Below are positions 1 through 54,395 of a stretch of DNA of 54,395 nucleotides, piece by piece. The notes below the pieces were generated by a model that was given only the letters and a program-made list of their open reading frames with translations, had not been told where the DNA came from and searched no databases. This DNA is from a virus, in the IMG/VR virus record IMGVR_UViG_3300032006_000010, positions 1 to 54,395 of that record, one strand, 5' to 3'. The translations under genes and the position numbers were made by a program. How positions within the stretch are numbered: the first letter of the stretch is position 1; every line of letters begins with the position of its first letter.

Positions 1-140
1 TAGTCTCAGTCCGGACCGTCGTCGTCTTGATATTTTCAAGGATTATGCATTACATCCTCATGTATCAGCAGACGGAGAACCATGCCTTGGTGGATTTTCA
101 CAACCTTGGAGTCAGTGTGTCAGTACAAATAATATTCCTT
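1..140. repeat. Terminal direct repeat, left copy (circular genome overlap)
   Basis: This segment recurs at the right end (54256-54395). The only difference is A at 127 versus T at 54382, a synonymous Thr codon change (ACA/ACT). The same open frame passes through both copies, so joining the ends gives one uninterrupted E2-like gene. I infer a circularly permuted genome or circular assembly whose ends overlap by 140 bp. A true physical terminal repeat is less likely because the repeat lies inside a gene. Confidence 0.93.
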
Positions 141-1249
141 CCCTAGTAAATGTAGCTCAAGCATTTCTTAATACTTGGACTCGTGGTGACCATTATTGGG
201 ATATAAATGGTTATTATAATAGCTGGAAGGCTGCTTATCCTGAAACTACTCATAGAAAAGAGTTTCCTTTTACTGAATGGTTAACACAAAGCTTCAAATG
301 GGACCATATGAAACGTAGAATAGGTATTGATGATAGAGCTAGATTATCATTCCGTGGTGCTTTCGAGTTTCCTAAGTTCTATTATAGTGAGGATTATAAG
401 GAAAAGAGACCAAAAGACCCGAATAAACATTGGAAGATGTTTGATTTATTCAATGGTGCTATGTTCTTTTATAGAACCAAGGAAGATACCGAGGATAAAT
501 TAAAAGAAACCCTTGTGAATCTATCAAAAATAGTAGGTGGCGCTCTTTGGAATATAAAAGAAAGCGTTGGAGCAGAAGTAGGAATTGAAACCAGACTTGT
601 AGATGGATTATTCGAAGATGTTCTTATGGAAAACGACTGGAGTAAATCTATTATAAAGGTTCCCGGTAGGGGTCCTAGGATAGAATATACTATAGCCTCC
701 GAGTTTAATGACCTTCATTATTGTTTAGACGGAGAAGCTAGAAAAAGAGCAGCTAATCTTGTAAACAATAACCCACTGACTTCTGATATGGTAAATGAAT
801 ATGCAAGAGCTATGAACCGTGCAGAACCTTGGGAATGTGGTGGATATTTAGAAAGGAATGATATTCTTGAATGTCTTTCCTATTATATGAGAAGGGGAAG
901 AACAAGAGCATACCCATATCTGCTTAGAGCCTTACGTAATATGATAAAGTTATTAGTAGGTTCGGATGTATGGAACAATGACCTCCTAATAGAAGGAGCT
1001 ACAGGTGTTAAATCTGCAGAAATTCTTTTAGAGGGTTTAATGATAATAAAGGATTTCACAGATGACGTAGATGAGTTCGATAGAGTCATTAGGAATCATT
1101 ATACTTATGAACTCTGCGATAGATATGAACAAATCCTTCGTAGACAAATCAAAGGAAGGATAACAGATGTCAAACGTAAGTACAGACCCATCATTCACAG
1201 TGCGACTACCGGAGCTGATAGTACAGAAAATCAATTATCTTTTGACTAG
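2..1249 (+). CDS. E2-like ubiquitin-conjugating protein, C-terminal part (residues 117-531)
   Basis: This is the downstream part of a 531-aa protein that begins at 53909 and crosses the junction; the frame is open from the first base, so the ATG at 308 is internal. Residues 134-146 read HPHV, six residues, CLG, which matches the E2 (UBC) pattern HPN(V/I)...G.ICL. That makes Cys144 the candidate thioester cysteine, followed by W152 and a helical stretch as in UBC folds. About 310 further residues (from roughly 219), mostly predicted helical and charged, match nothing I know and could recognise substrates. The end overlaps the JAB gene by 83 nt, and the modifier, isopeptidase and E1 genes are adjacent. 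Seen: motif and gene order. Known: E2 enzymes carry a modifier as a thioester. Inferred: E2 activity. Confidence 0.72.
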   Translation, partial: SLSPDRRRLDIFKDYALHPHVSADGEPCLGGFSQPWSQCVSTNNIPSLVNVAQAFLNTWTRGDHYWDINGYYNSWKAAYPETTHRKEFPFTEWLTQSFKWDHMKRRIGIDDRARLSFRGAFEFPKFYYSEDYKEKRPKDPNKHWKMFDLFNGAMFFYRTKEDTEDKLKETLVNLSKIVGGALWNIKESVGAEVGIETRLVDGLFEDVLMENDWSKSIIKVPGRGPRIEYTIASEFNDLHYCLDGEARKRAANLVNNNPLTSDMVNEYARAMNRAEPWECGGYLERNDILECLSYYMRRGRTRAYPYLLRALRNMIKLLVGSDVWNNDLLIEGATGVKSAEILLEGLMIIKDFTDDVDEFDRVIRNHYTYELCDRYEQILRRQIKGRITDVKRKYRPIIHSATTGADSTENQLSFD

Positions 1250-1910
1250 ATTCAAGGATATTGAATGGTCAGGTCCAGCATGGTATAGTGTCAGGAAACA
1301 GGAGGATAATGGTTTTCCAATTGATGTCGAACTAGCTTATTTCAAACCAATCCATTTAGGTAATGGTGCTGAAACTGAGCTTGATGGCAATAAAATGGGG
1401 AAACTGTTACCACGGATTTATAAGAAAAGTCCGGACTTAAAGGACTGTTTTCTTGGCTTAATTCATAGTCATCATACTATGGGAGCATTTCTAAGCTCCA
1501 CAGATGAAAGCACAGCCTTAGAGCAAGCAGTATTTGATGGATTGTTCTTCTCAACAGTTGTAGCCTCTAGTAAGAGTCCATTTGCTACATGCGTCACCTA
1601 TAGAGACCAGTTTGGTTATTCTAATATTATAGAGGGTGAAGTAGAAACAGATGTACAATTACATGTTCCTAAAGAATGGAAACAGGAAGCTACACGTATT
1701 GAGAAGGCTAAGAAGAAGGAAGATAAGAAAGCATACAAATACACTCCAATGCGTACAGCTACAAATGAGCAGCTAACTATGGGGTATACTCGTCCAGAGT
1801 ACTATCATAATGGTTGGGGCTATCAACGTACAATCGAAGATGAACCAGAAACTAAAAAAAAAGTGACAGTGGGAACGAACCGGTTCAGCAAGTTGACAAA
1901 AAGCAGTTAG
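1167..1910 (+). CDS. JAB/JAMM (MPN) domain metalloprotease, ubiquitin-like isopeptidase
   Basis: A 247-aa protein with a complete JAMM zinc-protease signature: Glu33 in EWSG, then H100-S-H102, seven residues, S110, two residues, D113. In this family the two His and the Asp bind zinc and the Glu is catalytic; members trim or remove ubiquitin-like modifiers at the terminal glycine. The N-terminus (FTVRLPELIVQKI then EWSGPAWY) fits the family, so the ATG at 1167 is chosen despite the 83-nt overlap with the E2 gene; AAGGAAGGA lies just upstream. A Lys-rich linker (residues 170-190) and a Tyr-rich tail follow. Near the end a run of nine A (1854-1862) would allow a -1 shift into an open frame reaching 2047, giving a protein of about 293 aa. 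Confidence 0.92.
   Translation: MSNVSTDPSFTVRLPELIVQKINYLLTRFKDIEWSGPAWYSVRKQEDNGFPIDVELAYFKPIHLGNGAETELDGNKMGKLLPRIYKKSPDLKDCFLGLIHSHHTMGAFLSSTDESTALEQAVFDGLFFSTVVASSKSPFATCVTYRDQFGYSNIIEGEVETDVQLHVPKEWKQEATRIEKAKKKEDKKAYKYTPMRTATNEQLTMGYTRPEYYHNGWGYQRTIEDEPETKKKVTVGTNRFSKLTKSS
1853..1865 (+). promoter_or_regulatory. Candidate -1 ribosomal frameshift site (A9 run)
   Basis: Nine consecutive A bases follow ACT in the JAB frame. The -1 frame is closed by TAA at 1853-1855 immediately before the run, then stays open to the stop at 2045-2047. The zero frame ends at 1908-1910. A slip on the run would append about 61 residues (SDSGNEPVQQVDKK onward), which include the 43-aa reading frame at 1916. 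A homopolymer length error in the assembly, or run-length variation between genomes, would look the same. Confidence 0.5.
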
Positions 1911-1915
1911 AGTGT

Positions 1916-2047
1916 ATGGATGACCTTACTACTCAATTCTTAGATAGTGAGTTATCTTATCATGAATACCTTGAAAAAGTTAGGGACTTCTGCCCAGACA
2001 TAGACCCGTTTATGTACATGGATGACCCTAAAAATTGGACAGCTTAA
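1916..2047 (+). CDS. 43-aa acidic protein, or C-terminal extension of the JAB protein
   Basis: An acidic peptide beginning MDDLTTQFLDSELSYHEYLE, of unknown function. It has no convincing ribosome site of its own, starts 5 nt after the JAB stop, and lies in the frame reached by a -1 slip at the A9 run at 1854-1862. I therefore favour it being the tail of a frameshifted JAB protein; a separately translated small protein coupled to the JAB stop is the alternative. The acidic, amphipathic composition would suit a protein-binding tail, but that is inference. Confidence 0.55.
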   Translation: MDDLTTQFLDSELSYHEYLEKVRDFCPDIDPFMYMDDPKNWTA

Positions 2048-2050
2048 AAG

Positions 2051-2286
2051 CTGACACATCATCTCAGAGACCCCATCCACAGCTACAATACAACTCTGAG
2101 ATACAGCTAAGGGTTCAGTTGTTTGTTTTAACAGTGAAAACTGGGGTTGGCAAACAGTGAATTAACACCACCTAGGACTAAGCCGTAATGGCTTCCCTAC
2201 GGAATGCTGAATCCTAAGATTTGAGGCATTTGGAGAGTGCAGACAGCCGCCAATGTAAGTCCTCAACTTTAACCGTTAACTAAGGA
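2051..2286 (+). ncRNA. Structured RNA leader between the JAB and E1 parts of the operon
   Basis: A gap of about 240 nt without a gene but rich in nested pairing. Perfect 9-bp stem 2061-2069/2094-2102. Stem TAGGA/TCCTA (2173-2177/2212-2216) enclosing CCGTA/TACGG (2183-2187/2198-2202). Final hairpin TTGAGG/CCTCAA (2221-2226/2261-2266) extended by CATTTGG/CCAATG with one bulged base. An ACCCCA/TGGGGT pair could make a pseudoknot with the first stem. The last hairpin ends about 15 nt before the AAGGAGG of the next gene. It may be a cis-regulatory leader, a processing site or an independent RNA. I see no group I intron core and no known riboswitch. Confidence 0.5.
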
Positions 2287-2292
2287 GGTAAA

Positions 2293-2550
2293 ATGACTAC
2301 TAAAACCTTACAGACTTTTAAGGAAATTCTAGACGATATGACAGAAGATGATTCAAATATAAAATATGAAATAACAAAAAATTCTTTAGACCTAAAAGTA
2401 AATGGCTGGACATATTCAATAGAAAAGAGCAGATGTTTAACAAGAGAAGATAGATGGGATTGGCTTGCTCACATGTCTGAAAAGAACTGGATTGATAACT
2501 ATACATTCATGGTAACATTTTTAAAGGCATGTAGAACTTGGGGTATATAA
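2293..2550 (+). CDS. Hypothetical 85-aa protein
   Basis: Not recognised. The start is set by a strong AAGGAGG seven bases upstream, right after the structured leader. The sequence (MTTKTLQTFKEILDDMTEDD start, then a Trp-rich middle with DRWDWLAHMSEKNW) suggests a small mixed alpha/beta soluble protein. Its stop overlaps the next start in a TAATG arrangement, so the two are probably translationally coupled. It sits between the JAB and E1 genes and could be an accessory of the conjugation module, but nothing in the sequence proves that. Confidence 0.8.
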   Translation: MTTKTLQTFKEILDDMTEDDSNIKYEITKNSLDLKVNGWTYSIEKSRCLTREDRWDWLAHMSEKNWIDNYTFMVTFLKACRTWGI

Positions 2551-2705
2551 TGGAAAAATGGTCAAACGAACGTATCCATTATCAACCAAAAATAAGAAAA
2601 ATGGCTATTGAACATGCAATGGAGCGATACCGAGAATCGTTCTGGTATTATAGGCTCCTTAAGAAACTTCGTTTAATTAAGAGAGGAGACAACGATGAGA
2701 CATGA
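2550..2705 (+). CDS. Hypothetical 51-aa basic protein
   Basis: A small Arg/Lys/Tyr-rich, probably helical protein (MEKWSNERIHYQPKIRKMAI start, ending LIKRGDNDET). It begins on the TAATG overlap with the preceding gene and runs 11 nt into the E1-like gene; the ribosome site of the E1 gene (GAGAGGAG) lies inside it. No family recognised. The tight coupling on both sides supports it being translated. Confidence 0.65.
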   Translation: MEKWSNERIHYQPKIRKMAIEHAMERYRESFWYYRLLKKLRLIKRGDNDET

Positions 2706-3480
2706 TTCTAGATTCTTAAGAAATAAAGACCTTATTGAACAAAGAAAACTTGACATGATAGGTATAGTAGGTCTTGGAGGCATAGGTTCGTTTCTTATAC
2801 AGTCGTTAGCAATAATGGGCTGGAGAGACTTATTCGGCTGGGATAATGATGTAATTGAAGCACATAATCTTAGTTCTACAGCATATCCTGTAAAATCAGT
2901 AGGCGATGATAAAAAAGACGCAGCCAAAGAGCTCTTTGCTAATTATAGTGAAGGGTGGCAAGGAATAGCAACAGCTGGAAATTTTACTGATGAGAATATA
3001 CCCTATCCAAAACAGATAGTATGTACCGATAATATGGAATCAAGAAAACTAGTGTATGAAAAATGGAAGAAACAATTAGAAAAGAGACATCCACGTGAGT
3101 TATTTAAGGATTCATTCTTTATAGACTTACGTATGGGTGCAACTAGTGTTGAGATGATAACCGTAACTCCAAATAATGATAATTATATGGACCATTGGTT
3201 ACCATCACACGACATTCCTCCCGCACCGTGTTCAATGAAACACACAGTATTTGCAGCTCAATATATTGCAGCACTTGGGATTTCTCAGGTGTATAATTTA
3301 GTTGCAGGTCTTGCATTTTATGACTACATTTGGACCAGCCTGAACCCAAATATGGTCAAATTTGGTACTTTAATAATTCCTAAAACAGAGGAGGTATTAA
3401 ATGATAGAAGTGAGGAAAGTAAGCACAGATTGGATGGCGATGCCATCCGGACTGACTTATCTCATTATCGGTCAGCCTAA
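2695..3480 (+). CDS. E1-like (ThiF/MoeB/UBA family) adenylyltransferase
   Basis: A 261-aa Rossmann-type E1 domain. The nucleotide-binding glycine loop GLGGIGS is at residues 26-32, the acidic/asparagine cluster D50-N-D52..E55..N58 follows the second strand, and CTDNMESR (110-117) is the conserved D-N-x-x-S-R ATP-site motif. Cys179 in PAPCSMKH sits where E1/ThiF proteins carry the thioester cysteine. No CxxC zinc pairs are visible, unlike MoeB/ThiF of cofactor synthesis. Known of the family: it adenylates the C-terminal glycine of a ubiquitin-like protein. The nearby modifier, E2 and JAB genes make this the activating enzyme of a conjugation pathway rather than thiamin or molybdopterin synthesis. 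Overlaps the next gene by 80 nt. Confidence 0.92.
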   Translation: MRHDSRFLRNKDLIEQRKLDMIGIVGLGGIGSFLIQSLAIMGWRDLFGWDNDVIEAHNLSSTAYPVKSVGDDKKDAAKELFANYSEGWQGIATAGNFTDENIPYPKQIVCTDNMESRKLVYEKWKKQLEKRHPRELFKDSFFIDLRMGATSVEMITVTPNNDNYMDHWLPSHDIPPAPCSMKHTVFAAQYIAALGISQVYNLVAGLAFYDYIWTSLNPNMVKFGTLIIPKTEEVLNDRSEESKHRLDGDAIRTDLSHYRSA

Positions 3481-4261
3481 AACTGGTAAGACAACAGCAG
3501 CATCAAGATGGAGTACAAAAGGACAGGACGGTGTTATCGTTCTGGACACAGACTTAGGGTCTGACTTCGTTGATGGTGTTAATGCTGTTACAGTTACCTG
3601 TTTGAATACACCTGAACGTCCGTTATTGAAAGACGGAAAACAGGTTGTAGCTAACCGTAAAGCGCAATACGAAGTAATTCCACCGGAAGAACGGGGTTAT
3701 TCATATCGTTCAGGCGATATGAAGGGGACTCCTATGCCAGTTTACAGTCTAATAGAGTGTTATAACTGGCTAGCTTCCAAGTGGGATGAACTCCCATACG
3801 ATACTATAGTTATTGATACTATAAATGAGGTCAATCTTTGGATTGAAGCTTCAGTTATAAATGAACTAGGTATCACAGCTATGGGAGAAGGTCAGTGGGG
3901 AGCTGATTGGGGAAAAGCCAAGCGTAAGAACTTGGATATCATCAAGAAGTTCCAAGACCTCATAAAAAAGAAAGGCGGAAATCTGGTATTAATAAGCCAT
4001 GCTAAATCAACGGTAATGACCGATGGTAAAGCACAGTTGGCACCAGAGCTCCCACGTGGACTCGGATATGGTCTGGCTGCTAAAGCAGACGTAATCGGGT
4101 ATACTACGGCATCAAAAGAAGATGGTGAATATAATATCTCATTTGAAGCATATGATGAGAGAGTAGTTGGTAGCAGATTGCGACCTCTTGCTCAGAAAAT
4201 ATTACCTCTTAGTTATGATGCTATAACTAAAGAAATATTAAGTTATAAGGAGGAAGAATGA
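3401..4261 (+). CDS. Sak4-like RecA-fold ATPase (AAA_24-type), recombination/annealing
   Basis: 286 aa. Walker A GQPKTGKTT at about residues 24-32, Walker B in DTIVIDTINE, and a later LVLISHAKS strand are the pattern of phage Sak4/AAA_24 single-domain RecA-like ATPases. Those proteins promote single-strand annealing together with an SSB; here an SSB-like gene follows directly (ATGA overlap at 4258-4261), supporting this reading. The start is fixed by GAGGAGGT 7 nt upstream, inside the E1 gene. A general phage NTP-binding protein is the fallback description. Confidence 0.8.
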   Translation: MIEVRKVSTDWMAMPSGLTYLIIGQPKTGKTTAASRWSTKGQDGVIVLDTDLGSDFVDGVNAVTVTCLNTPERPLLKDGKQVVANRKAQYEVIPPEERGYSYRSGDMKGTPMPVYSLIECYNWLASKWDELPYDTIVIDTINEVNLWIEASVINELGITAMGEGQWGADWGKAKRKNLDIIKKFQDLIKKKGGNLVLISHAKSTVMTDGKAQLAPELPRGLGYGLAAKADVIGYTTASKEDGEYNISFEAYDERVVGSRLRPLAQKILPLSYDAITKEILSYKEEE

Positions 4262-43837: not shown

Positions 43838-45178
43838 TTACGCAACCCATTTCATAATAGCGTGAGTTTCTGGTAGACTGATTTCCAAACCGGCTTCGGT
43901 TAGAATCATATCTTTCCGTCCATCAACATTATTATTCTGCACATTTGTTACAATATGCGTGTCACGTGAGACACCATTCCCAGCGAGAGGACGATACTTA
44001 ACATTAGCTAAATCAATAGCCATTGCTATATCTTCATCCTGTCCCCGAAACAGAGGTTCAGCAACAAAGTGAAGGTTACCAAAAATGGTATTAACTCTAG
44101 TCACTGCGTGACCAAAGGAACCTTTTATGTTTTGAACATCTAGCTTATATGAAGAAGAAGTGACGGAGTTCTTTAATAGACCATCTCCACTTAACTTCTG
44201 CAACCAAGCCAAAATCTTGCGTGAAGCAAGTACTAGCTTGTCGCCACTGTTTCCGGATTCAGGTGCAAAGAAGTCCTTCATTGCATCGATAAAAGTGTCA
44301 TAGGTTGAGGATGAATAGTCAAAATTCATTATTGTACCATTCGCCTCAGTGTAGGGTACTATACCATGAGAGTACCGTAAGGGTGCATTGTCAGTAGCAG
44401 CATCATCGGAAGCACCAACACCAAACAACATAGCGTGTTCAATGTCCATTTTGTGTTCCATGAGCTTATCTGCCCACACTCTACGATATTCATCAGGGCG
44501 CCCACGATAGCGGGTTGCCAGAGCTGTACCAGAGAATAACTGGATTGCTGTCTTAAATATCTGACAGTATCCTTCTCTTGAATACAGTTCGTCTTTCCAG
44601 CCTTCTGGGTCAGTTCCACCTTCACCCCATGCACTACCGATAACCTGACCTTGAGTACCTACTTCTACATCACCCTCTGCAACAGCTTCTAGAGCTGTAC
44701 AAACGATTGAAGTATAAGTAGCAGCAGTAGAACCATTAAAAGCAGCAGCAACACCATCGCCTGCTGTGACAGAAGTAATTCTAAGGGCTTTTTGCCCTAT
44801 CCTTACTACTTGTCCAACAAGTAAGTATTGCGGTGCAGCTGTATCTGTTCCACCACCTGCGGTCAAGTCATTACCATATTTGTCATAATCACTTACGACT
44901 TTATATGTTTCACTTTCTCCGGCAGCTTTTGCGCCTCCATCTGTCTTAGAAATAAAGTTACGACGTTGCCATTGATGACGTTGTTCAAGAAACTTGAATA
45001 CGGGGTCATCAGTAGCTTCTTTCGCTACTTTAGATAGATAGACGAAGAACGGCGATTGCTGAGGAGCCAGTTCAGAGACTCTTTCACCAAAATTATAAAC
45101 TCGACGGGAGTCGTTGATGCTTACAGAGGCTAAAGAGCCTGCTGCATCACCTGTGCTTACTGACCAACTATTAGCCAT
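43838..45178 (-). CDS. Major capsid protein, 446 aa (SU10/DUF5309-like)
   Basis: SPFFVYLSKVAKEATDDPVF then FLEQRHQWQRRNF near the N-terminus and SREGYCQIFKTAIQLFSGTA in the middle match the HK97-fold capsid proteins of short-tailed phages of the SU10/DUF5309 group, as do VWADKLMEHKMDIEHAMLFG and the C-terminal NVKYRPLAGNGVSRDTHIV with TEAGLEISLPETHAIM. It follows a scaffold-like gene and precedes a strong hairpin. A Gly/Thr-rich insert at about 105-180 could be a surface domain. Confidence 0.88.
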   Translation of the reverse strand: MANSWSVSTGDAAGSLASVSINDSRRVYNFGERVSELAPQQSPFFVYLSKVAKEATDDPVFKFLEQRHQWQRRNFISKTDGGAKAAGESETYKVVSDYDKYGNDLTAGGGTDTAAPQYLLVGQVVRIGQKALRITSVTAGDGVAAAFNGSTAATYTSIVCTALEAVAEGDVEVGTQGQVIGSAWGEGGTDPEGWKDELYSREGYCQIFKTAIQLFSGTALATRYRGRPDEYRRVWADKLMEHKMDIEHAMLFGVGASDDAATDNAPLRYSHGIVPYTEANGTIMNFDYSSSTYDTFIDAMKDFFAPESGNSGDKLVLASRKILAWLQKLSGDGLLKNSVTSSSYKLDVQNIKGSFGHAVTRVNTIFGNLHFVAEPLFRGQDEDIAMAIDLANVKYRPLAGNGVSRDTHIVTNVQNNNVDGRKDMILTEAGLEISLPETHAIMKWVA

Positions 45179-45201
45179 AGCGTTTTACTCCTTTCCTCAG
45201 A

Positions 45202-46200
45202 TTAACTCCAAGGATTTCGTTTTTTATAATCGTTCAACATTGAATCCATCATGGAAGTTGATTCATCTGTAGCGCCAGCTTGCGTCTGACCGGGAACTAC
45301 GCCCATAGGGCTTGGGACCGATTGTGCTCTTTTTCGTTGCTCAAAACTCTCATTAGAGGGCGTTTGAGCAGCTACTGGAGGTGCATTAGTCGGACTCATG
45401 TTCCCGCCATTCTGCATTCTGTACAGTTGAAACAAATTGTCCACAGTAATATTCTCCGGATTATCCATTACCTCAACGAATTTCTGAATTTCTTCAGGCG
45501 TAGCCTGATATTGTTCAGTTAGATGAGTAGACATCTTTTGCATATTACTATTATATGCTTCCCTTTCCGCCTGTTGCTTTAGAATAGAATCACGTTCCTT
45601 CTTCAATTTGCCTTTTTCCTCTTCCATCACTGCAACGGTATATTGAGAATGCAGACGATTATACTCGTCCATATTGTCTCTCCATTCGTCCATTGAATCC
45701 AAGTATTTAGCTGAATCAGAACTATTATCATCATAAGCATCTGCCCTATTGAAACCCGAAGGTTTCTTAGGTTTTTCTGGCGGGGGAGGAAACTGTTCCA
45801 TTGCGGATTCCTCTTTTTCCGTCACCTGAGGCTGTTGTGCCTGTTGAGTTTCGACTGTATTAAGCTTATCCTTAAGAGCCGCTATCTCATTACGAGCCTT
45901 ATCAGTCTCAGATTGCCAGTATTGATAACGCTTGATATCATTATCAACATCAGTAGGTTCTGCCGTTGCTTGCTGAGGTACTTCATCCACGGGTTCCATA
46001 GGAACTGGTGAAGGTTCAGCCGACACAGGTTGCTCTTGAGCTTCCTTGTTGACACGGAAAAATTCATCTACCAAACCAGAGTTTCCTTCCAATAGTGGGT
46101 CGACTTGCGACTCACTCTCAGGTATCATTCCTACTGGTTCATTAACTTGCGGTTGTTCTGTGATTTCCTGAACTTCAGGGGTAACCAAAGGTTCTGCCAT
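45202..46200 (-). CDS. Putative capsid scaffolding protein, 332 aa
   Basis: Acidic, Pro/Gln/Glu-rich N-terminal half (disordered), a central coiled coil (QYWQSETDKARNEIAALKDK; VAVMEEEKGKLKKERDSILK) and a C-terminal stretch with a last basic segment (LNDYKKRNPWS). Length, composition and its place between portal and capsid genes are typical of scaffolds, which bind capsid through a C-terminal basic helix. No protease domain seen. Confidence 0.8.
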   Translation of the reverse strand: MAEPLVTPEVQEITEQPQVNEPVGMIPESESQVDPLLEGNSGLVDEFFRVNKEAQEQPVSAEPSPVPMEPVDEVPQQATAEPTDVDNDIKRYQYWQSETDKARNEIAALKDKLNTVETQQAQQPQVTEKEESAMEQFPPPPEKPKKPSGFNRADAYDDNSSDSAKYLDSMDEWRDNMDEYNRLHSQYTVAVMEEEKGKLKKERDSILKQQAEREAYNSNMQKMSTHLTEQYQATPEEIQKFVEVMDNPENITVDNLFQLYRMQNGGNMSPTNAPPVAAQTPSNESFEQRKRAQSVPSPMGVVPGQTQAGATDESTSMMDSMLNDYKKRNPWS

Positions 46201-46232
46201 AAGTTATAACTCCTTATTCATGCAAGCACCCA

Positions 46233-48404
46233 TTAGGACTTGGATGGTTTTGCGTTTTGTTTTGATGAGCGTACGGCTTCCCGTACCTCGCTCTTTACTT
46301 GTCCTAGAGCATCATCAAGGCGTTTCTCGAATAATCTGCCTGAGGCTTTGCCTTGGGTTGAGACTTTATCGAGGTCTGCTTTGAATTTTTCAAGTTCAGC
46401 TCTTTGTTTAGCATGATATACTTCTCTTTCACGAGTCTGCATATCACCCTTGAGCTTTTTAATTTCTTCGCTAGCCTGCTCCAGCTCGCCCTGAAGTTTA
46501 CCTACTATATCGGTGCGAGTTAATACACCTTCCATATCGAAAACTTCAGTTTTCTTTAAAACTTCTTGCTTATCAATAATACCCTTTTCGTAAGCATCCA
46601 TATACATTTCAAGCTGGGCAAAACGATTAGTGGGTAATGTAGAACCAGTGATTACAACTACATCGAATGCTCCTCTTGAAATATCGTTAATAACATTTAA
46701 TTCTCCGCTTTTATCATCATAAAGCTTTTTATTTATAGCATACTCAGTGATACTATTATTAGGCTGTACAATTCTTACAACTTTTTCGGCTTGGTACAAC
46801 TGTTGCATAATAGGTATGGCTACACGAGCTATGCGGACTAGTCCACTTTCAATATCCTGAAGCTTGGACTTTATCTTACGCTGACCAAACTCATCAAGAG
46901 AAACTGTAGCCTTATAAGTATGTGGTGCCGCTTCAGAATTTCCCTGCATTAATTCATATAAACCAAGAGCATGGTCAATATCTGTTTTTGCGACCTGCTC
47001 ATTCTGATATAATGTATTAGGTAAAGGAGTTGGCTGAATAGGCTGTGGAGCACCTTGGTCCATATCAACTTCTATTGCAACTCCGGGTTGTGCCCATCTA
47101 TTCTCAAAATCCTGCATATCAACGGAACCAGATGGAATTAATATCTTAGTATTAGTAGATGTGGTAGCATGAGCAACAATCAGAGACCGTGTCTTGTTTA
47201 TATACTCCTGTAAGTCCTTTACCATCCTAACATCAGAAACCGGGTAGGGTGTTCTATTGTGTATATTCATGAAGAACACGATAGGATAGTTTTCAACGGG
47301 CAATATGCGAGAGTACAAGTATTGGTCTCCCATGATGACGCACATTTTTACCCTTTGGACCGGAACAGACACGGTCTCGATTAAACCTTCTTCAACCAAA
47401 TCAGCATGAGAGAGCTCTTCTATCTGTGGCATTGGAGGTGCGTCCATCTCATCTTCCATCTCAGCAGCCTGAACACCTTGCTCATACTTCATCATTAGCT
47501 GGTCAATAATACCCTTAGCTTTCTCAGCATTTGTAATTACCTGACCATTAACTCTAATTGCTGGTCTAGCCATGTATTCAGACATTTCTTCTTCCAGCAT
47601 AACCTCTTCGGTCTTATCAACGTTATTCTTGATATGAAAACGCTTTACCCAAATTTTGTAGTAACGTTCATAACCCCTAATATACTCACTGTTTTCTCCC
47701 CAAGAAGCGTCAGTCTTTGTCTGAGTATCCTCTGGAAAGACAATACCCTTATCATCAACACGGGAAGTTGTAGGTCTATCTGTATCTAGGTCACTAGTAG
47801 CATTTTTTATTGCATCCTTATACATGGGATACATCTGCATTGCCTGCTCTTTTGTGAATAAGCGTGAAACAATAATATTCTCAGCGTCATCTCCCAGCTT
47901 TTCACGACTATTGGGGTCAATATAAACATCGAGAGGGTCTACGTCCTTTATACAGACTTCACCCCTGCCATAATCTTTCAAGGGGTCAATATATACCATC
48001 ATAGCGCCCATACCCATTACATAGTAATCGTCTATTACATTACGGAGAGCCTGATTTCCGTCTGATACATACCACATGTATTCGAGTAATCCATTGAAAA
48101 CCTGTGCTACTTTATTATCGCTGTCTTCTCGAGGAGATACCCTGAATTGTGGTTTGCCTGAAGTGAGGAGAGCCTTTGCGGCCTCCACTGCGGGGTGGAT
48201 ACGGTTTACTACGAGGGGTGCTTGACCCCTCTCAAGTAAAATTCTTTGCTGTTCAGCAGTCCACTGTCTGCCTAATCTAAATTCTTTGTCTTCCTGAGCC
48301 TGTAAAGCCCAAACATCACGCTTTTGAGAATACGATTTCCATATCTTATGCGTGGTGTCTACTATATCTTCAGGAACTTCGGTTTCTTTTTCGATATACG
48401 CCAT
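46233..48404 (-). CDS. Portal protein (P22-like), 723 aa
   Basis: Wing and stem signatures of P22-type portals: WALQAQEDKEFRLGRQWTAE, VCIKDVDPLDVYIDPNS, RVVKDLQ-like segment MVKDLQEYINKTRSLIVAHA, then LPNTLYQNEQVAKTDIDHAL and FGQRKIKSKLQDIESGLVRI, with a C-terminal coiled coil (GELEQASEEIKKLKGDMQTR) forming the barrel/tail. The 723-aa size matches P22 gp1. The ring is the DNA channel at one capsid vertex. Terminase large subunit lies immediately upstream. Confidence 0.9.
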   Translation of the reverse strand: MAYIEKETEVPEDIVDTTHKIWKSYSQKRDVWALQAQEDKEFRLGRQWTAEQQRILLERGQAPLVVNRIHPAVEAAKALLTSGKPQFRVSPREDSDNKVAQVFNGLLEYMWYVSDGNQALRNVIDDYYVMGMGAMMVYIDPLKDYGRGEVCIKDVDPLDVYIDPNSREKLGDDAENIIVSRLFTKEQAMQMYPMYKDAIKNATSDLDTDRPTTSRVDDKGIVFPEDTQTKTDASWGENSEYIRGYERYYKIWVKRFHIKNNVDKTEEVMLEEEMSEYMARPAIRVNGQVITNAEKAKGIIDQLMMKYEQGVQAAEMEDEMDAPPMPQIEELSHADLVEEGLIETVSVPVQRVKMCVIMGDQYLYSRILPVENYPIVFFMNIHNRTPYPVSDVRMVKDLQEYINKTRSLIVAHATTSTNTKILIPSGSVDMQDFENRWAQPGVAIEVDMDQGAPQPIQPTPLPNTLYQNEQVAKTDIDHALGLYELMQGNSEAAPHTYKATVSLDEFGQRKIKSKLQDIESGLVRIARVAIPIMQQLYQAEKVVRIVQPNNSITEYAINKKLYDDKSGELNVINDISRGAFDVVVITGSTLPTNRFAQLEMYMDAYEKGIIDKQEVLKKTEVFDMEGVLTRTDIVGKLQGELEQASEEIKKLKGDMQTREREVYHAKQRAELEKFKADLDKVSTQGKASGRLFEKRLDDALGQVKSEVREAVRSSKQNAKPSKS

Positions 48405-48419
48405 CGTATTAATTTAATA

Positions 48420-49934
48420 CTATAATGTCATCCAATCAAGTATCTTTCTAGCTTTATTTACCCCGCTTGGGTCAATGTATTTCTTTTGCCTACAAGCCTT
48501 AATTCCATCCATTGCGTAATATACAGCATCCAGTATATCATCATGTTTACCCCTTGGATAGGATAAAAACTCCTGTTGGGCTATAATATCCTCTGGTCTG
48601 AAGTAAAACTCTCCTCTAGCAAGTGGGGCTACCAAGGAAAGCAGTCTCTCGGACTTTCTTTGTCTCGGTTTTATGCCCTTTTCCAGCCCGGGTATATACA
48701 GGGACTGTTCAAGCATCATTTTTCGTACGCTAGCCCGGAGAGCTTCTTGGTAGCCCACCGTCTCTATTTTCATCCTTTTTGGATGATACTTCTTAAAAAT
48801 CTTGACGATAGTCTCTGGCTGTATTGCCGGGTCAATCTTATCACGGAGAATATCGATAATATACTTATTATTATCATTGTCAACACCCACAGTAGCAACA
48901 GCAAAGAAATCGCTACGACTAGATAGACTACTAGCAGGGTCAATGCCGCAATAGATGTCAACAGGCTTACGCTCCTCCTCGCCATCAATTGTCCGAACGA
49001 GAAGATTCTGACCGTCGACTCTCTTATAACTGTAATGATGAAGTTTAATGTATTCCGGTTTAAAGGGTGCATTGTCTGGAGATTGCGCTTCATTCATATA
49101 CTCCTGATAAAAACCATTTAGATTGCCAACAGATTCAAATTCTGCCTTAATCTGTAGAATTCTCTCCTTAGGAAAACGCTCATGCCATATACTACGACCT
49201 TTTTCATCGTATATAGCATACCAAAGAACATTCCATGCCGGAGATTCCCTAGCCCAATATAAGAAACAATCTTCAGAGATGACGGTTCCAATAAGTATTA
49301 TTCGACCATCATCGGACAAAGACGGGATAACGGCTTCGGTCATCCATTTTCTATTCTTAGCCCTGCCTTCCTGAGTGGAGGCATTTAATTCTGACTCATA
49401 ATCATCTACGATAATGAGATTAGGACGAGTATCACCTTCAAGAAACCCACGAACACGCTGACCAGTACCGACAGCCACAATACGTGCCCCATTAGCCAGA
49501 ACAATATCATTATTAGTCCATCTTTTTGCCGTCGTGGGTCCATAATCACCAAACATCGCCTTGAAATTCGCACTATTCTGGAGATGATACTTGATTCTAG
49601 AGAGGAAGTTAATGCTTTGTGACTGTGATTCCGAGATAATAACGATAAAAAGGTCCCTGTCTGATGGTTTAAAAGCGATTTTGTGGAGGGGTAGTATTAA
49701 GGAGGTCACTGTACTCTTCGCTGTCCCCCTAGGGGCTGCGATAAGTACTCGCTTTATAGTGTCATCAGACAGGGATTTATAAATTTCGTAGTGAAAAGGT
49801 GGTACATCACGGCTTAAAGCCGTAGGAAACATGGTTTTTCCGAATAAACCAATATTTTTCCTTAATTTCTTTAGGGCATTCTCTTCAGCCCATCGAGATT
49901 CAAAATCTTCAGTCTGTTTCTTCTTCTTTACCAT
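48420..49934 (-). CDS. Terminase large subunit, 504 aa
   Basis: ATPase motor: Walker A APRGTAKST (about residues 67-75), Walker B NLIIVDDYES, and C-motif ILIGT. RNase H-like nuclease: YCGIDPASSLSSRSDFFAVA, then PKRMKIETVGYQEA and HDDILDAVYYAMDG at the end. ATG 49934 is chosen because AAGGAG lies 9 nt upstream; an earlier non-ATG start at 49967 would add 11 residues without a ribosome site. Overlaps the upstream gene by 26 nt. It packages DNA through the portal. Confidence 0.93.
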   Translation of the reverse strand: MVKKKKQTEDFESRWAEENALKKLRKNIGLFGKTMFPTALSRDVPPFHYEIYKSLSDDTIKRVLIAAPRGTAKSTVTSLILPLHKIAFKPSDRDLFIVIISESQSQSINFLSRIKYHLQNSANFKAMFGDYGPTTAKRWTNNDIVLANGARIVAVGTGQRVRGFLEGDTRPNLIIVDDYESELNASTQEGRAKNRKWMTEAVIPSLSDDGRIILIGTVISEDCFLYWARESPAWNVLWYAIYDEKGRSIWHERFPKERILQIKAEFESVGNLNGFYQEYMNEAQSPDNAPFKPEYIKLHHYSYKRVDGQNLLVRTIDGEEERKPVDIYCGIDPASSLSSRSDFFAVATVGVDNDNNKYIIDILRDKIDPAIQPETIVKIFKKYHPKRMKIETVGYQEALRASVRKMMLEQSLYIPGLEKGIKPRQRKSERLLSLVAPLARGEFYFRPEDIIAQQEFLSYPRGKHDDILDAVYYAMDGIKACRQKKYIDPSGVNKARKILDWMTL

Positions 49935-50941: not shown

Positions 50942-51169
50942 TTGCAAATCCAACCAAAAATTACCGTAGAATGGGAGTACGTGGTATACATTGCACCGTA
51001 CCCGTGCGTTTTTCACGGCACGGGGGTCCCTGCCCAGTTGAAACAGAACCGCTGGTTCTATTCCATCTGGTCACCCCCATCCCGCACACCGCACGTGTAC
51101 TGGCGCCCAGCCCCTGCTAGCCACTGCGTGGCAGATACGTACCCTATGCCTTTAGGCATAGCTACGTAG
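50942..51169 (+). CDS. Possible 75-aa aromatic-rich protein
   Basis: Starts with TTG (no good ribosome site) and reads KITVEWEYVVYIAPYPCVFH, then NRWFYSIWSPPSRTPHVYW, rich in Trp/Tyr/Pro. The GC-richer composition resembles the next gene at 51216. It may be real or a chance open frame across foldable RNA; the competing overlapping frame from 50914 looks less protein-like. Confidence 0.3.
   Translation: MQIQPKITVEWEYVVYIAPYPCVFHGTGVPAQLKQNRWFYSIWSPPSRTPHVYWRPAPASHCVADTYPMPLGIAT
51136..51168 (+). promoter_or_regulatory. Strong hairpin upstream of 51216 gene
   Basis: TACGT..CTATGCC, loop TTTA, GGCATAG..ACGTA: a 7-bp stem continued by a 5-bp stem across a small internal loop. GCCAC/GTGGC forms a second hairpin just before it (about 51120-51132), and CCTTT/AAAGG (51192-51196/51201-51205) holds the only ribosome-site-like AAAGG of the next gene, which could limit its translation. 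Confidence 0.6.
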
Positions 51170-51215
51170 CCATTGAGCAATAACCCCTCAACCTTTCACG
51201 AAAGGCATCAGTCTT

Positions 51216-51557
51216 ATGGCATCAAAGAAAGTATCGATACGAGTATCGAACACTTTCCGTGGCTCCGTAGACCGACACGGTGAGTTCGTTAGGGAAGAAG
51301 ACCGAAACGGTCGTTGGATTGCATCCAACAACCTGCGTATCATATCTGATACGTCGGCTTCTTTACCCGCCGTCCTCACTGCCAAGCGTATCACGTCACT
51401 TGTAAAGCAGAAGCCTGCTCTACAAGTAACTGATGGTACGGACTATCAGCTTACCAACAAGGTAGACCTTGATGGTGACGCTGAGCGTGGCTTAGACCCT
51501 GCTACCGCATGGTATTACGCCCCGCAAAGTCCTCCCGTTACGCTTGACATCGGCTAG
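51216..51557 (+). CDS. 113-aa hypothetical protein encoded in hairpin-rich sequence
   Basis: A 113-aa frame with a basic N-terminal half (MASKKVSIRVSNTFRGSVDR, then GEFVREEDRNGRWIASNNLR) and an acidic C-terminal half. Family not recognised. The frame is open for its full length and composition is GC-richer than the rest of the genome. Six or more perfect hairpins lie inside it (for example 51300-51312, 51313-51329, 51336-51353, 51398-51427, 51458-51471), far more than expected by chance. It is the first real gene candidate of the plus block; a strong terminator follows at 51608. Confidence 0.6.
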   Translation: MASKKVSIRVSNTFRGSVDRHGEFVREEDRNGRWIASNNLRIISDTSASLPAVLTAKRITSLVKQKPALQVTDGTDYQLTNKVDLDGDAERGLDPATAWYYAPQSPPVTLDIG

Positions 51558-51607
51558 GACACGGTAGTGCATTGCGTGCTATTGGCACGTACGCATTGCA
51601 TGCTCAA

Positions 51608-51660
51608 ACCTGTGCTTCCCCCTACACACAGTAGGGGGGACACACACAGGTCTTATTTTA
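51608..51660 (+). terminator. Intrinsic terminator after 51216 gene
   Basis: Outer stem ACCTGTG/CACAGGT (51608-51614/51645-51651) and inner stem CCCCCTAC/GTAGGGGG (51618-51625/51631-51638) with loop ACACA, followed by CTTATTTTA. Very stable; should end transcription of the 51216 gene or act as an attenuator. A GCGTGC/GCACG-type hairpin precedes it (about 51565-51600). Confidence 0.85.
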
Positions 51661-51691
51661 TCACACCCGTGAAAGGAATCAGCAATAGCTG

Positions 51692-51787
51692 ATGTATTCA
51701 ATATTTCGTAATTTCAGTAAGCTATGGTACTGCATAGTGAGTCCGGATGGTAACCCAATCGACGTAGACAACCAGACCAAAGGTTAA
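51692..51787 (+). CDS. 31-aa peptide MYSIFRNF...
   Basis: Reads MYSIFRNFSKLWYCIVSPDG then NPIDVDNQTKG: a hydrophobic, basic start and an SPDGNPID-type loop, which looks protein-like. GAAAGGA lies 14-19 nt upstream with the ATCAGC/GCTGAT hairpin (51679-51684/51689-51694) in between, which would bring the site close to the ATG. No family; short, so moderate doubt. Confidence 0.4.
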   Translation: MYSIFRNFSKLWYCIVSPDGNPIDVDNQTKG

Positions 51788-51814
51788 CACAGTTGATTAA
51801 ATCCCAAACAGTAA

Positions 51815-51848
51815 GAGAGTAGCCCCAGCCTTAAGCTGGGGCGCTCTC
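51815..51848 (+). terminator. Very strong hairpin (attenuator or terminator-like)
   Basis: GAGAG TA GCCCCAGC, loop CTTAA, GCTGGGGC G CTCTC: an 8-bp GC-rich stem continued by five base pairs across a small bulge. No T tract follows, so it is more likely a transcript end-protector, processing site or RNA-unit boundary than a simple terminator. It marks the start of the tandem RNA array. Confidence 0.6.
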
Positions 51849-51855
51849 GTATTCG

Positions 51856-51943
51856 TTACTTGTAATGAGGTCACAATTAAGTAGCTTCTTTTGTGGTTGG
51901 TTGAGGTGCTGAGGTGCAAATCCTCACGTGTAATTACAAGTAA
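51856..51943 (+). ncRNA. Structured RNA unit 1 (three-way junction), 88 nt
   Basis: Perfect 11-bp closing stem TTACTTGTAAT/ATTACAAGTAA. Inside are hairpin CACAA/TTGTG (51872-51876/51891-51895) and hairpin TGAGG/CCTCA (51910-51914/51922-51926) with the 7-nt loop TGCAAAT. The last looks like a T arm but a tRNA fold fails (closing stem too long, no anticodon arm). No frame is open through it. Confidence 0.5.
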
Positions 51944-51949
51944 GTATTT

Positions 51950-52048
51950 ATCAGTCTACAGCCCTAGACGTGGGGCGGTCGTCATGGCGGCTGGGAACTA
52001 CAAAATATGGTGGTGATGTTAACAAGACCGTTCCCAACGTAGGCTGAT
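51950..52048 (+). ncRNA. Structured RNA unit 2 (three-way junction), 99 nt
   Basis: Closing stem ATCAGTCTAC/GTAGGCTGAT (10 bp with one G-U), hairpin GCCC/GGGC (51961-51964/51973-51976) and hairpin TGGGAAC/GTTCCCA (7 bp) with a long loop, then TTCTTTATTTAA. A GGTC/GACC pair could form a pseudoknot. Same plan and same kind of T-rich end as units 1 and 3. Confidence 0.5.
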
Positions 52049-52062
52049 TCTTTATTTAACCG

Positions 52063-52133
52063 GGGGAAGAGCGTGGACAGATGATATGTCCTGTGTCAGC
52101 AAGCACTGAATCTTCCCCTTTTTATTTTATTTA
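52063..52133 (+). ncRNA. Structured RNA unit 3 ending in a terminator-like T tract
   Basis: Closing stem GGGGAAGA/TCTTCCCC (52063-52070/52111-52118), hairpin GGACA/TGTCC with 7-nt loop GATGATA (52075-52091), hairpin TCAG/CTGA (52096-52109), then TTTTTATTTTATTT. Could be a stand-alone small RNA with its own terminator. Confidence 0.55.
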
Positions 52134-52139
52134 GTGAAC

Positions 52140-52850
52140 CAAATCTAAACAGTGGCTACTGATTTCTAGAATCACACGAGTGCACATCGTGCCGGCTGAC
52201 GAGGCTGGGTAGTCCAGAACTTTATTTATTTATTGGGTGTTCTATAGTTGCAAATATAGAGCATTTTAGCAGTGTGACTGAGTGCGTTCTCGAGTTGAGG
52301 CGTAAGGTACATTCCAAGGAAGTATGTTCCGCATCGAAGTAAGTACTTAGATGAACCGAATAAGTATCGGTGGGGTGGTCAGTTGGTAAAGTTGGTGTTT
52401 CCCTCGAGAAGGGGCACTAATTAGAAAAGAAGGATTCTTCTTGCTCTGTTTACAGGCGGCTGAAAGGCTAATCCTGTGACTATGTAGACTGGTAGCTAGC
52501 CTTAAGATGGGGCTCCAGTATCATTACATGCTATAGTAGCAGCATTGACGAGGTGTACGCCTAAAGCGGAACCCAGAGATGAACCAACGACAGTTGGGTA
52601 ATGAGTGCAGAGTATCTATACTATCTTCCAAAAACACGAGGTCCTTGTATCCTCGTCATTGCTACCAAATTTATACCAAGGCTGTGGTCCAAAGTCCTGA
52701 GAGACTAGTACGGATAAACTCAGAGAGACCTGAGAATTGGGCGAGTAGTGCACCTCCACCCTAATAACAAACTCCACGGCCTTAAATGGGGTAGTATGCT
52801 GATGTAAGTCTTCCAATGGATGCATTCAGTGTACTGCCAAGATATCGTGA
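52140..52850 (+). ncRNA. About 700 nt of apparently non-coding, highly foldable RNA
   Basis: No convincing gene (the short open frames have no ribosome sites and poor composition). At least ten small perfect hairpins are visible, including CACGA/TCGTG (about 52178), CTGG/CCAG followed by TTTATTTATTTATT (52209-52240), TCTATA/TATAGA (about 52250), AAGAAG/CTTCTT (about 52428), ACTGG/CCAGT (about 52488), CCAAC/GTTGG (about 52583) and ACGAGG/CCTCGT (about 52636-52655). TTCTCGAG (52287-52294) and CTCGAGAA (52403-52410) are complementary at long range; each also contains the self-complementary CTCGAG. It ends just before the AAGGAGG of the next gene. A large ornate phage RNA (GOLLD/ROOL scale) or a leader/origin RNA are candidates. 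Confidence 0.5.
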
Positions 52851-52862
52851 AAGGAGGCTAAA

Positions 52863-53003
52863 ATGCCGACAGAACAAATAAACATAGTAGATAAGTATAA
52901 TAAGGAATTAGACGATTGTATTAATTCACAAATAGATGCAGATAAAATAGATGATTTTGATGCAAAAGTTCAGTGTGAAGAAATATTAGTCGAATCATTC
53001 TAA
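52863..53003 (+). CDS. 46-aa acidic protein
   Basis: Strong AAGGAGG upstream. The sequence MPTEQINIVDKYNKELDDCI and DDFDAKVQCEEILVESF is acidic and helical. The stop overlaps the zinc-ribbon start (TAATG), so they are coupled. Function unknown; first gene of the early block after the RNA region. Confidence 0.7.
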   Translation: MPTEQINIVDKYNKELDDCINSQIDADKIDDFDAKVQCEEILVESF

Positions 53004-53260
53004 TGAATCCGGTTCCAACAGGCGGAGACCCAGCAAATCTGGAGTGTTCTAAATGTGGTTCAAGCAACACAGAGTTCGAAGAATACATGTCAACAGGGTA
53101 TGCAGCTCATCATCCTTATTGGATTAGGCGTAACAATCCCGTAGAAGTATCCGAATATGGCATTAAATGCCAAGATTGCGACCACGAAGAAGACCCTGAT
53201 ACGTTGGGTCTGCGCTTTGAACCAAATGACCCAGATGATGGAAACTGGGTAGGAAGGTAA
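53003..53260 (+). CDS. 85-aa zinc-ribbon protein next to the conjugation genes
   Basis: C-x2-C (ECSKCGSSNTEFEEY, about residues 15-18) and C-x2-C (IKCQDCDHEEDPDTLG, about residues 56-59) about 37 residues apart make a single zinc ribbon. The loop between them has HHPYW. The tail is acidic (DPDDGNWVGR). Starts on the TAATG of the 46-aa gene. It might help target a modifier to substrates (E3-like adaptor) or bind nucleic acid; only the zinc motif is certain. Confidence 0.72.
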   Translation: MNPVPTGGDPANLECSKCGSSNTEFEEYMSTGYAAHHPYWIRRNNPVEVSEYGIKCQDCDHEEDPDTLGLRFEPNDPDDGNWVGR

Positions 53261-53619: not shown

Positions 53620-53823
53620 ATGGCTAAAGTACTAGTACAGACCTTTGGTGGCGTTGTCAAGACAATGGAAGCTGAAAATCCTGCTGCATTAGCAGAGCAA
53701 TTAGGCTTGGCATTGGACAATTCCACAATTAACGTCAATGCTAAAGCGGCTGAAGCAACGACTACGTTGCGAGATGACGATTTCGTTGCATTTGTGACGG
53801 ATAAAGTCCAGTCGGGTAAGTAG
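53620..53823 (+). CDS. Ubiquitin-like beta-grasp modifier (ThiS/MoaD/PRTRC-C type), 67 aa
   Basis: Short strand-turn-strand start (KVLVQTFGGVVKTMEAE), helix (NPAALAEQLGLA), then TINVNAKAAEATTTLRDDDF and VAFVTDKVQSGK. The C-terminal half matches the ThiS/MoaD pattern (v.vNg......tLkdGD.V.fv..v.gG): N-V-N-A-K, a Leu-Arg-Asp-Asp-Asp turn, then strand VAFV. It ends Ser-Gly66-Lys67: one residue after the glycine, as if the JAB protease must trim it before E1 activation. AAGGAGA precedes the ATG. E2, JAB and E1 genes follow within 3 kb. Fold assignment is by eye and is the least certain of the four parts. Confidence 0.62.
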   Translation: MAKVLVQTFGGVVKTMEAENPAALAEQLGLALDNSTINVNAKAAEATTTLRDDDFVAFVTDKVQSGK

Positions 53824-53908: not shown

Positions 53909-54395
53909 ATGTCTGAAGATAATCTATATAAAACAACCTTTGTTAAAAAGTGGCTAAAATCAAATATAAATTATCATAATCAAGTTCACATGTCGAATGA
54001 AGAATTGACTAATACAGCCCAACATTTTGTGGAAAAACTAGATATTCATGATTGTAGTATAAATCCCGGCTCATCTCATATGAATTTTAGAGTTCGTGTA
54101 GGTAGACCAAAGTTCAGGGGCAGTGGAAACTATATACTACCTAAACATTCTCTAGTTTTTAATACCTATGAACCTTCAAAGGTTAGAATCGTTATGGACG
54201 GTTCAATGGAGCCAGAATGGTGGGGAGACCATGAAGCATACATAATGGAAAGAAATAGTCTCAGTCCGGACCGTCGTCGTCTTGATATTTTCAAGGATTA
54301 TGCATTACATCCTCATGTATCAGCAGACGGAGAACCATGCCTTGGTGGATTTTCACAACCTTGGAGTCAGTGTGTCAGTACTAATAATATTCCTT
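53909..54395 (+). CDS. E2-like ubiquitin-conjugating protein, N-terminal part (junction-spanning)
   Basis: Start ATG 53909 follows AAAGGAG, 85 nt after the modifier stop. Residues 1-162 are encoded here and the frame continues from position 2 of the window through 1249 (531 aa in all). The early part is mixed alpha/beta (SNEELTNTAQHFVEKLDIHD, then MNFRVRVGRPKFRGSGNY and the strand KVRIVMDG, as in UBC folds), ending in the HPHV...CLG motif with Cys144 shared with the left copy of the terminal repeat. A 531-aa length is much more than the usual 150-aa UBC domain. Confidence 0.72.
   Translation, partial: MSEDNLYKTTFVKKWLKSNINYHNQVHMSNEELTNTAQHFVEKLDIHDCSINPGSSHMNFRVRVGRPKFRGSGNYILPKHSLVFNTYEPSKVRIVMDGSMEPEWWGDHEAYIMERNSLSPDRRRLDIFKDYALHPHVSADGEPCLGGFSQPWSQCVSTNNIP
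54256..54395. repeat. Terminal direct repeat, right copy
   Basis: Matches positions 1-140 with a single mismatch (54382 versus 127, synonymous). Shows that the window is one full turn of a circular map plus 140 bp. Confidence 0.93.

Follow-up and report, generated by a model that had tools for sequence, protein, structure and literature searches.

A candidate ubiquitin-like conjugation pathway encoded by an uncultured group of tailed phages and its counterparts in crAss-like phages

Ubiquitin-like conjugation in bacteria has so far been known mainly as a means of anti-phage defence. In the Bil system, BilA comprises two ubiquitin-like (Ubl) domains, BilB features a CEHH motif with the histidine after the cysteine, and BilD combines an inactive and an active adenylation domain (PMC11354881). 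In the operons of group 6d (Iyer et al. 2006, PMC1779556), the E2 enzyme is devoid of the classical upstream histidine and possesses a conserved histidine after the cysteine. Lambdoid phages harbor a tail-assembly pair of a Ubl and a JAB protein, lambda I and K (PMC1779556). Here, we describe the virus record IMGVR_UViG_3300032006_000010 (54,395 bases, referred to below as the window), in which four closely spaced genes coding for a Ubl modifier, an E2-like enzyme, a JAB/JAMM metalloprotease and an E1-like adenylyltransferase very probably represent a ubiquitin-like conjugation and deconjugation pathway of the phage itself.

In the window, the genes follow one another in the order Ubl–E2–JAB–E1 on one strand, spanning ~4.1 kb of the circular map, and downstream of them reside the genes of a Sak4-like recombinase, a 210-aa protein and DnaB/primase; this is essentially the compact unidirectional cluster preceding replication genes that was outlined in a preliminary description of the sequence. 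Every catalytic residue named in that description was found in place, i.e., E33, H100-S-H102, S110 and D113 in the JAB protein, GLGGIGS, CTDNMESR and C179 in the E1, the HPH...C site in the E2, and the terminal VQSGK in the 67-aa Ubl. The same description proposed a check for a beta-grasp fold and a search for the four genes together in other phages, and both turned out positive, as detailed below.

Predicted components and their conservation

The E1-like protein is the component recognized most readily, scoring 46.2 bits against ThiF (PF00899; cut-off 28.1), with profile matches to MccB, UBA5, UBA1 and Cap2; the E1–E2 models of CBASS match it as well. The GGIGS motif, D50, D52, K73 and D112 are conserved in the alignment of its homologs. 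Cys179 is invariant, crAss-like phages and the Flavobacterium phage FpV4 included, and is retained in the six exceptions to the motif, which places the protein in the E1/ThiF superfamily with a predicted thioester-forming cysteine. In the JAB protein, displaying profile matches to CSN5, RPN11 and AMSH, the residues E33, H100, S101, H102, S110 and D113 are invariant, also in crAss-like phages, and the zinc site HSH-x7-SxxD was found in 127 of 128 loci. The combination of the glutamate with HxH-x7-SxxD is indicative of a JAB/JAMM metalloprotease.

The Ubl yields profile matches to ThiS (2cu3) and SAMP2. Its AlphaFold2 model (predicted local distance difference test score, pLDDT, 86) displays a beta-grasp with 28 Foldseek matches at E<=0.001, mostly to ubiquitin and SUMO and also to Mth1743 and TtuB; judging from the model, it is a beta-grasp modifier with a predicted C-terminal glycine. 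S65 and G66 are the sole invariant columns across 37 Ubls. The number of residues following SG in 44 distinct Ubls was 0 (7 proteins), 1 (18), 2 (11), 3 (3), 8 (1), 9 (3) or 14 (1), and the sequences of these tails are unrelated to one another. Such variable tails look like the mark of a protease-trimmed precursor with a removable extension, so the mature Ubl of the window is predicted to end in Gly66, leaving Lys67 as a one-residue tail.

The E2-like gene spans the ends of the record, and joining its two parts (Table 1) yields a single open reading frame (ORF) of 531 aa which reads HPHVSADGEPCLGG and contains Cys144. The single-contig relatives match this protein over nearly its full length (28–30% identity, about 541–561 aligned positions, E about 1e-60). 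Across 38 E2s with a mean column identity of 19%, the invariant residues are H-P-H, C, G and one N, plus Met1. The mean pairwise identity amounts to 57% in the active-site segment, is mostly 21–31% in the neighboring UBC-like segments and declines mostly to 12–15% in the C-terminal ~300 residues; the C-terminal half forms a mainly helical extension that evolves rapidly. In eukaryotic E2s, the HPN motif is separated from the catalytic cysteine by a spacing of 8. In the phage proteins, the corresponding spacing from the third motif residue amounts to 8 in 82 loci; a spacing of 7 was found in 17 loci. The model of a homolog of the window protein (L037, AlphaFold2 pLDDT 86) had UBC/UEV/RWD domains as all of its top 11 PDB matches, namely the UEV domains of Vps23/TSG101 and an RWD-type protein of the kinetochore, at weak E-values of 0.25–1.1. 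The UBC fold expected from the preliminary description is considered likely but not proven.

About 140 related loci were retrieved from scans of viral contigs, the alignment scans covering 80 loci with the E1 and 80 with the JAB gene; a scan of the same kind of contigs with single E2 sequences gave no matches, its patterns being too specific for a fast-evolving protein. In all 85 loci with enough upstream sequence, the JAB gene is preceded by a gene for a 420–712-aa protein with H-x-H...C-x-G; a small protein with a short tail behind its SG is encoded upstream of the latter. Profiles detected all four genes in 31 of the 34 non-redundant loci having at least 5.2 kb upstream of the E1; the remaining three belong to crAss-like and Flavobacterium phages, where the Ubl was found by position and motif. 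The order Ubl–E2–JAB–E1 is fixed in all 31. To avoid circularity, relatives were also sampled independently, through the terminase gene alone: all four genes are present in 8/8 such contigs with 10 kb upstream, and six further contigs reaching the Ubl position all have the Ubl. The co-occurrence (31/31 and 8/8), along with the E1 score above the ThiF cut-off, argues against a chance assembly of these genes, and the module is a core feature of the uncultured phage group of the window. An apparent loss of the E1 in 42-kb terminase-bearing contigs was rejected, since these contigs stop ~2.7–3.5 kb upstream of the terminase, short of the module position.

All four genes are under purifying selection, the ratio of nonsynonymous to synonymous substitution rates (dN/dS) being below 1 throughout. 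It is lowest for the Ubl (about 0–0.3 in the relatives) and the E1 (0.05–0.22), 0.06–0.34 for JAB and highest for the E2 (0.15–0.57); as an example, the same pairs of loci share 36–48% identity in the E2 vs. 77–86% in the slower E1 and Ubl. The E2 and JAB genes overlap in all loci (by 83 bases in the window). The Sak4 gene directly follows the E1 in 133 of 137 loci, mostly with a ~80–100-base overlap (80 bases in the window).

Other phages, bacterial genomes and layout of the record

The module is not unique to the phage of the window. Searches with tblastn for the E1 and JAB returned matches in crAss-like and Flavobacterium phages, and the same gene order was found in crAss001 (genes 79–76), DAC15, cr126, cr111, cr128, Dulem virus 41 and FpV4, where the genes are annotated as ‘thiamine biosynthesis protein’, ThiF, ‘metalloprotease’ or hypothetical. 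Their E2 proteins carry an invariant H-S-H...C-x-G with a His-to-Cys spacing of 16–20 in the members measured; tblastn with the E2 gave no match among deposited phages, though homologous-looking proteins are encoded at the expected place in crAss-like phages. In the Ubl, the core closes with an SG that never varies, and the long C-terminal extension behind it looks like a precursor tail. One of the seven crAss-like/FpV4 Ubls matches the C-terminal domain of ribosomal protein L7/L12 (E 5e-12); by eye it appears to be the cr126_1 protein (L225:2275-3201), with the match in the extension after SG. The neighbors of the module in crAss-like phages include primase, uracil-DNA glycosylase (UDG) and nucleases, with no Sak4 overlap.

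A further variant is represented by the jumbo Xanthomonas phage PhiXhv-15 (L229:2733-6612), in which a ThiF gene lies beside that of an 892-aa HPH...CLG protein, the protein upstream ends in ASGG, and the neighbors are topoisomerase and ligase genes. A JAB gene was detected there neither by Pfam nor by a profile search run without a positive control, which fits a Ubl needing no trimming. In about 85,000 bacterial species genomes, a pattern-limited scan found two loci, both on contigs of metagenome-assembled genomes, one of them (L223) carrying a crAss-like module. The literature searched, with most subscription papers outside its coverage, contained no report of a phage-borne E1/E2/Ubl/JAB set or of ThiF in crAss phages.

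Apart from one mismatch, the first 140 bases of the record are identical to positions 54256–54395, which makes the map circular; this mismatch in the end overlap accounts for the classing of the record as linear in IMG/VR. The features of the module and its surroundings are collected in Table 1.

Table 1. Location of the module genes and adjacent features in the window
Feature	Coordinates	Strand	Evidence
Ubl (modifier), 67 aa, predicted beta-grasp	53620..53823	+	ThiS match, profiles, AlphaFold2 + Foldseek, invariant S65 G66
E2-like enzyme, 5' part of a 531-aa gene spanning the record ends, with HPHVSADGEPCLGG and Cys144	53909..54395	+	
E2-like enzyme, 3' part	1..1249	+	invariant residues, homolog model, regional identity
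JAB/JAMM metalloprotease (predicted), 247 aa	1167..1910	+	Prok-JAB, profiles, zinc-site residues
43-aa ORF corresponding to the JAB C-terminal tail of relatives, separated by a frame change	1916..2047	+	
E1-like adenylyltransferase, ThiF fold, 261 aa, predicted catalytic Cys179	2695..3480	+	ThiF bits, profiles, invariant Cys
Zinc-ribbon protein, 85 aa, CxxC...CxxC, upstream of the Ubl	53003..53260	+	conserved position, weak Zn-ribbon Pfam matches
Sak4-like recombination ATPase	3401..4261	+	phrog_124, E 5e-26

Among the 66 loci that extend far enough upstream, 52 contain the zinc-ribbon gene (CxxC...SExGIxCxxC) shortly before the Ubl gene, making its product a possible accessory or fifth component. 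The separation of JAB and E1 by a leader and two small genes, regarded in the preliminary description as unlike the known arrangements, does exist in the window; as JAB abuts or overlaps the E1 in many relatives, it is an insertion of some subclades and not the general design. The label ‘structured leader’ is a weak one: the folding of this 245-base intergenic stretch (2048–2292) is only slightly above that of shuffled sequences (z -2.0), and a search of the window against Rfam returned no RNA family.

Elsewhere in the window, the capsid, portal and tail genes occupy the strand opposite to that of the module, with a P22-like portal and an SU10-like major capsid protein at 43838–48404. The terminase shares ~26–27% identity with the best-matching phages deposited in INPHARED, a database in which the group apparently lacks a close relative. 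A tRNA-Leu(TAA) was predicted by ARAGORN at 49781–49858, close to the 5' end of the terminase gene and on the opposite strand to it. A gene-poor stretch of ~2 kb (51000–52860) separates two divergent gene blocks and may be a control or origin region.

Proposed pathway and its alternatives

Established directly are the genes, their order, the conserved overlaps, the selection, the invariance of the catalytic residues and, as a prediction, the fold of the Ubl; from these, we infer every chemical step as well as the target. The JAB protease would cut the precursor of the Ubl behind its invariant Ser-Gly and, in the phage of the window, remove Lys67. The E1 would then adenylate Gly66 at the expense of ATP and hold the Ubl as a thioester on Cys179. 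The next carrier of the Ubl would be Cys144 of the E2, the HPH...C active site of this enzyme being located in its UBC-like N-terminal half. The variable helical C-terminal half of the E2 may select the substrate, acting in cis like an E3. Finally, the E2 would join the Ubl to a lysine or a terminal amine of the target, from which JAB could take it off again.

A number of results weigh against this interpretation. The single-sequence Pfam matches of the Ubl (ThiS, E 0.012) and JAB (Prok-JAB, E 6e-4) are below the cut-off, the window E2 matched no sequence-family model, and the structural matches of its homolog are weak as given above; hence, the case for these three proteins is built from synteny and fold as well as from motifs and profiles. 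In the window, the JAB frame breaks near an A9 run (1854–1862), and the tail, encoded in frame in the relatives, resumes in another frame, which may reflect a sequencing error, an indel or a programmed frameshift. Between the window group and the crAss-like phages, the homology of the E2s is modest, their profiles aligning on the HxH...C-x-G site (P 0.0012) with a probability of 20%, and the Ubl profiles show no significant similarity (P 0.39). Accordingly, since the E2 profiles align at a low probability and the Ubls do not, common descent of the whole module in the window group and the crAss-like phages and FpV4 is likely rather than proven. Finally, early genes commonly adjoin replication genes, so the position of the module proves no target.

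As to the target, proteins of phage or host DNA replication and recombination are our best guess, put forward tentatively because the module adjoins replication genes in several phage lineages. A more far-reaching proposal, possible if doubtful, is that Ubl conjugation constitutes a core phage-specific pathway of several major tailed-phage lineages (the uncultured group of the window, crAss-like Steigviridae, Flavobacterium phages and some jumbo phages) controlling replication or recombination in the way SUMO and ubiquitin act on eukaryotic PCNA, with a self-contained E2–E3. The rapid divergence of the E2 relative to the E1 and Ubl, with its C-terminal half at ~12–15% identity as would befit a target-facing part, and the early-type gene position keep in play another use of the same chemistry, namely tagging of host defence or regulatory proteins for takeover or counter-defence, the fast E2 half tracking host targets. 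This option is rather unlikely: the module is core in every testable relative, whereas counter-defence genes are usually patchy, and its linkage to Sak4 is conserved. Action on virion proteins, driving their assembly or maturation, has precedents in the lambdoid tail-assembly Ubl/JAB pairs (PMC1779556) and in the tagging of phage tails by Bil (as cited in PMC12135933); the location of the module with replication genes, on the strand opposite to the capsid, portal and tail genes, renders it improbable.

Two further explanations do without conjugation by the phage. The closest sequence relatives of the Ubl are ThiS and SAMP2, the E1 is of ThiF type and some sulfur-carrier operons include a JAB gene (PMC1779556), so the Ubl might act as a sulfur carrier, in the manner of ThiS, MoaD or TtuB, in the thiolation of tRNA, a nucleotide or a cofactor, the ‘E2’ being something else. 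However, an E2-like partner with H-x-H...C-x-G is present at every locus, no rhodanese domain or thiolase was seen beside the module, and operons combining JAB, E1 and E2 were read as conjugation systems by Iyer et al. (PMC1779556); the presence of the E2 in particular makes sulfur transfer quite improbable. The use of related machinery by bacterial hosts against phages (PMC10097602, PMC12135933) also brings up a set of decoys sabotaging host Bil or CBASS conjugation, itself not conjugating anything. This is the least credible of the explanations, given the strong constraint on the catalytic residues of all four parts, as a decoy needs no active E1 or E2.

Whichever protein is tagged, conjugation by the phage would represent a complete pathway that belongs to the core equipment of these phages, is maintained by purifying selection and hardly occurs in the bacterial genomes scanned. 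Its E2, in which the active-site spacing resembles that of eukaryotes, would constitute a divergent lineage bearing on how ubiquitin signalling arose. Since crAss001, DAC15 and FpV4 can be grown and their hosts are named, whether these phages tag proteins, and which ones, is now directly testable.

Comparison with known systems

The module resembles Bil in the four-part set of Ubl, E2, E1 and JAB and in the predicted exposure of the reactive glycine by JAB. It differs from Bil in the single 67-aa Ubl, the HPH before the cysteine in place of CEHH, the single-domain 261-aa E1 and the phage origin of the genes, so its sequence features are not those of a Bil system. The predicted E1/E2/JAB chemistry is shared with Cap2/Cap3 of CBASS, and the phage E1 profile reaches Cap2. 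Still, Cap2 unites the E2 and E1 in one protein encoded beside a CD-NTase, whereas the phage enzymes are encoded by separate genes along with a dedicated Ubl, and no CD-NTase was found among the module neighbors searched; these features set the module apart from type II CBASS.

The Iyer 6d operons and PRTRC cassettes are similar in having the Ubl, JAB, E1 and E2 as separate genes. The NCBIfam models of PRTRC, though, remain far below their cut-offs (PRTRC_A, 12.2 vs. 101.8 bits; PRTRC_ThiF, 17.1 vs. 144.75 bits), and the invariant HPH upstream of the cysteine distinguishes the phage E2 from that of group 6d, so the module falls outside both. With lambda I and K it shares a phage-borne Ubl and JAB; the lambda pair, in contrast, lacks an E1 or E2 and belongs to a tail cluster. 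Overall, the parts are of the known bacterial ubiquitin-like conjugation kind (PMC1779556), and the novelty of the module lies in its phage-specific occurrence, its separate genes, its HPH-type E2 with a large extension and its SG-ending Ubl with a variable tail.

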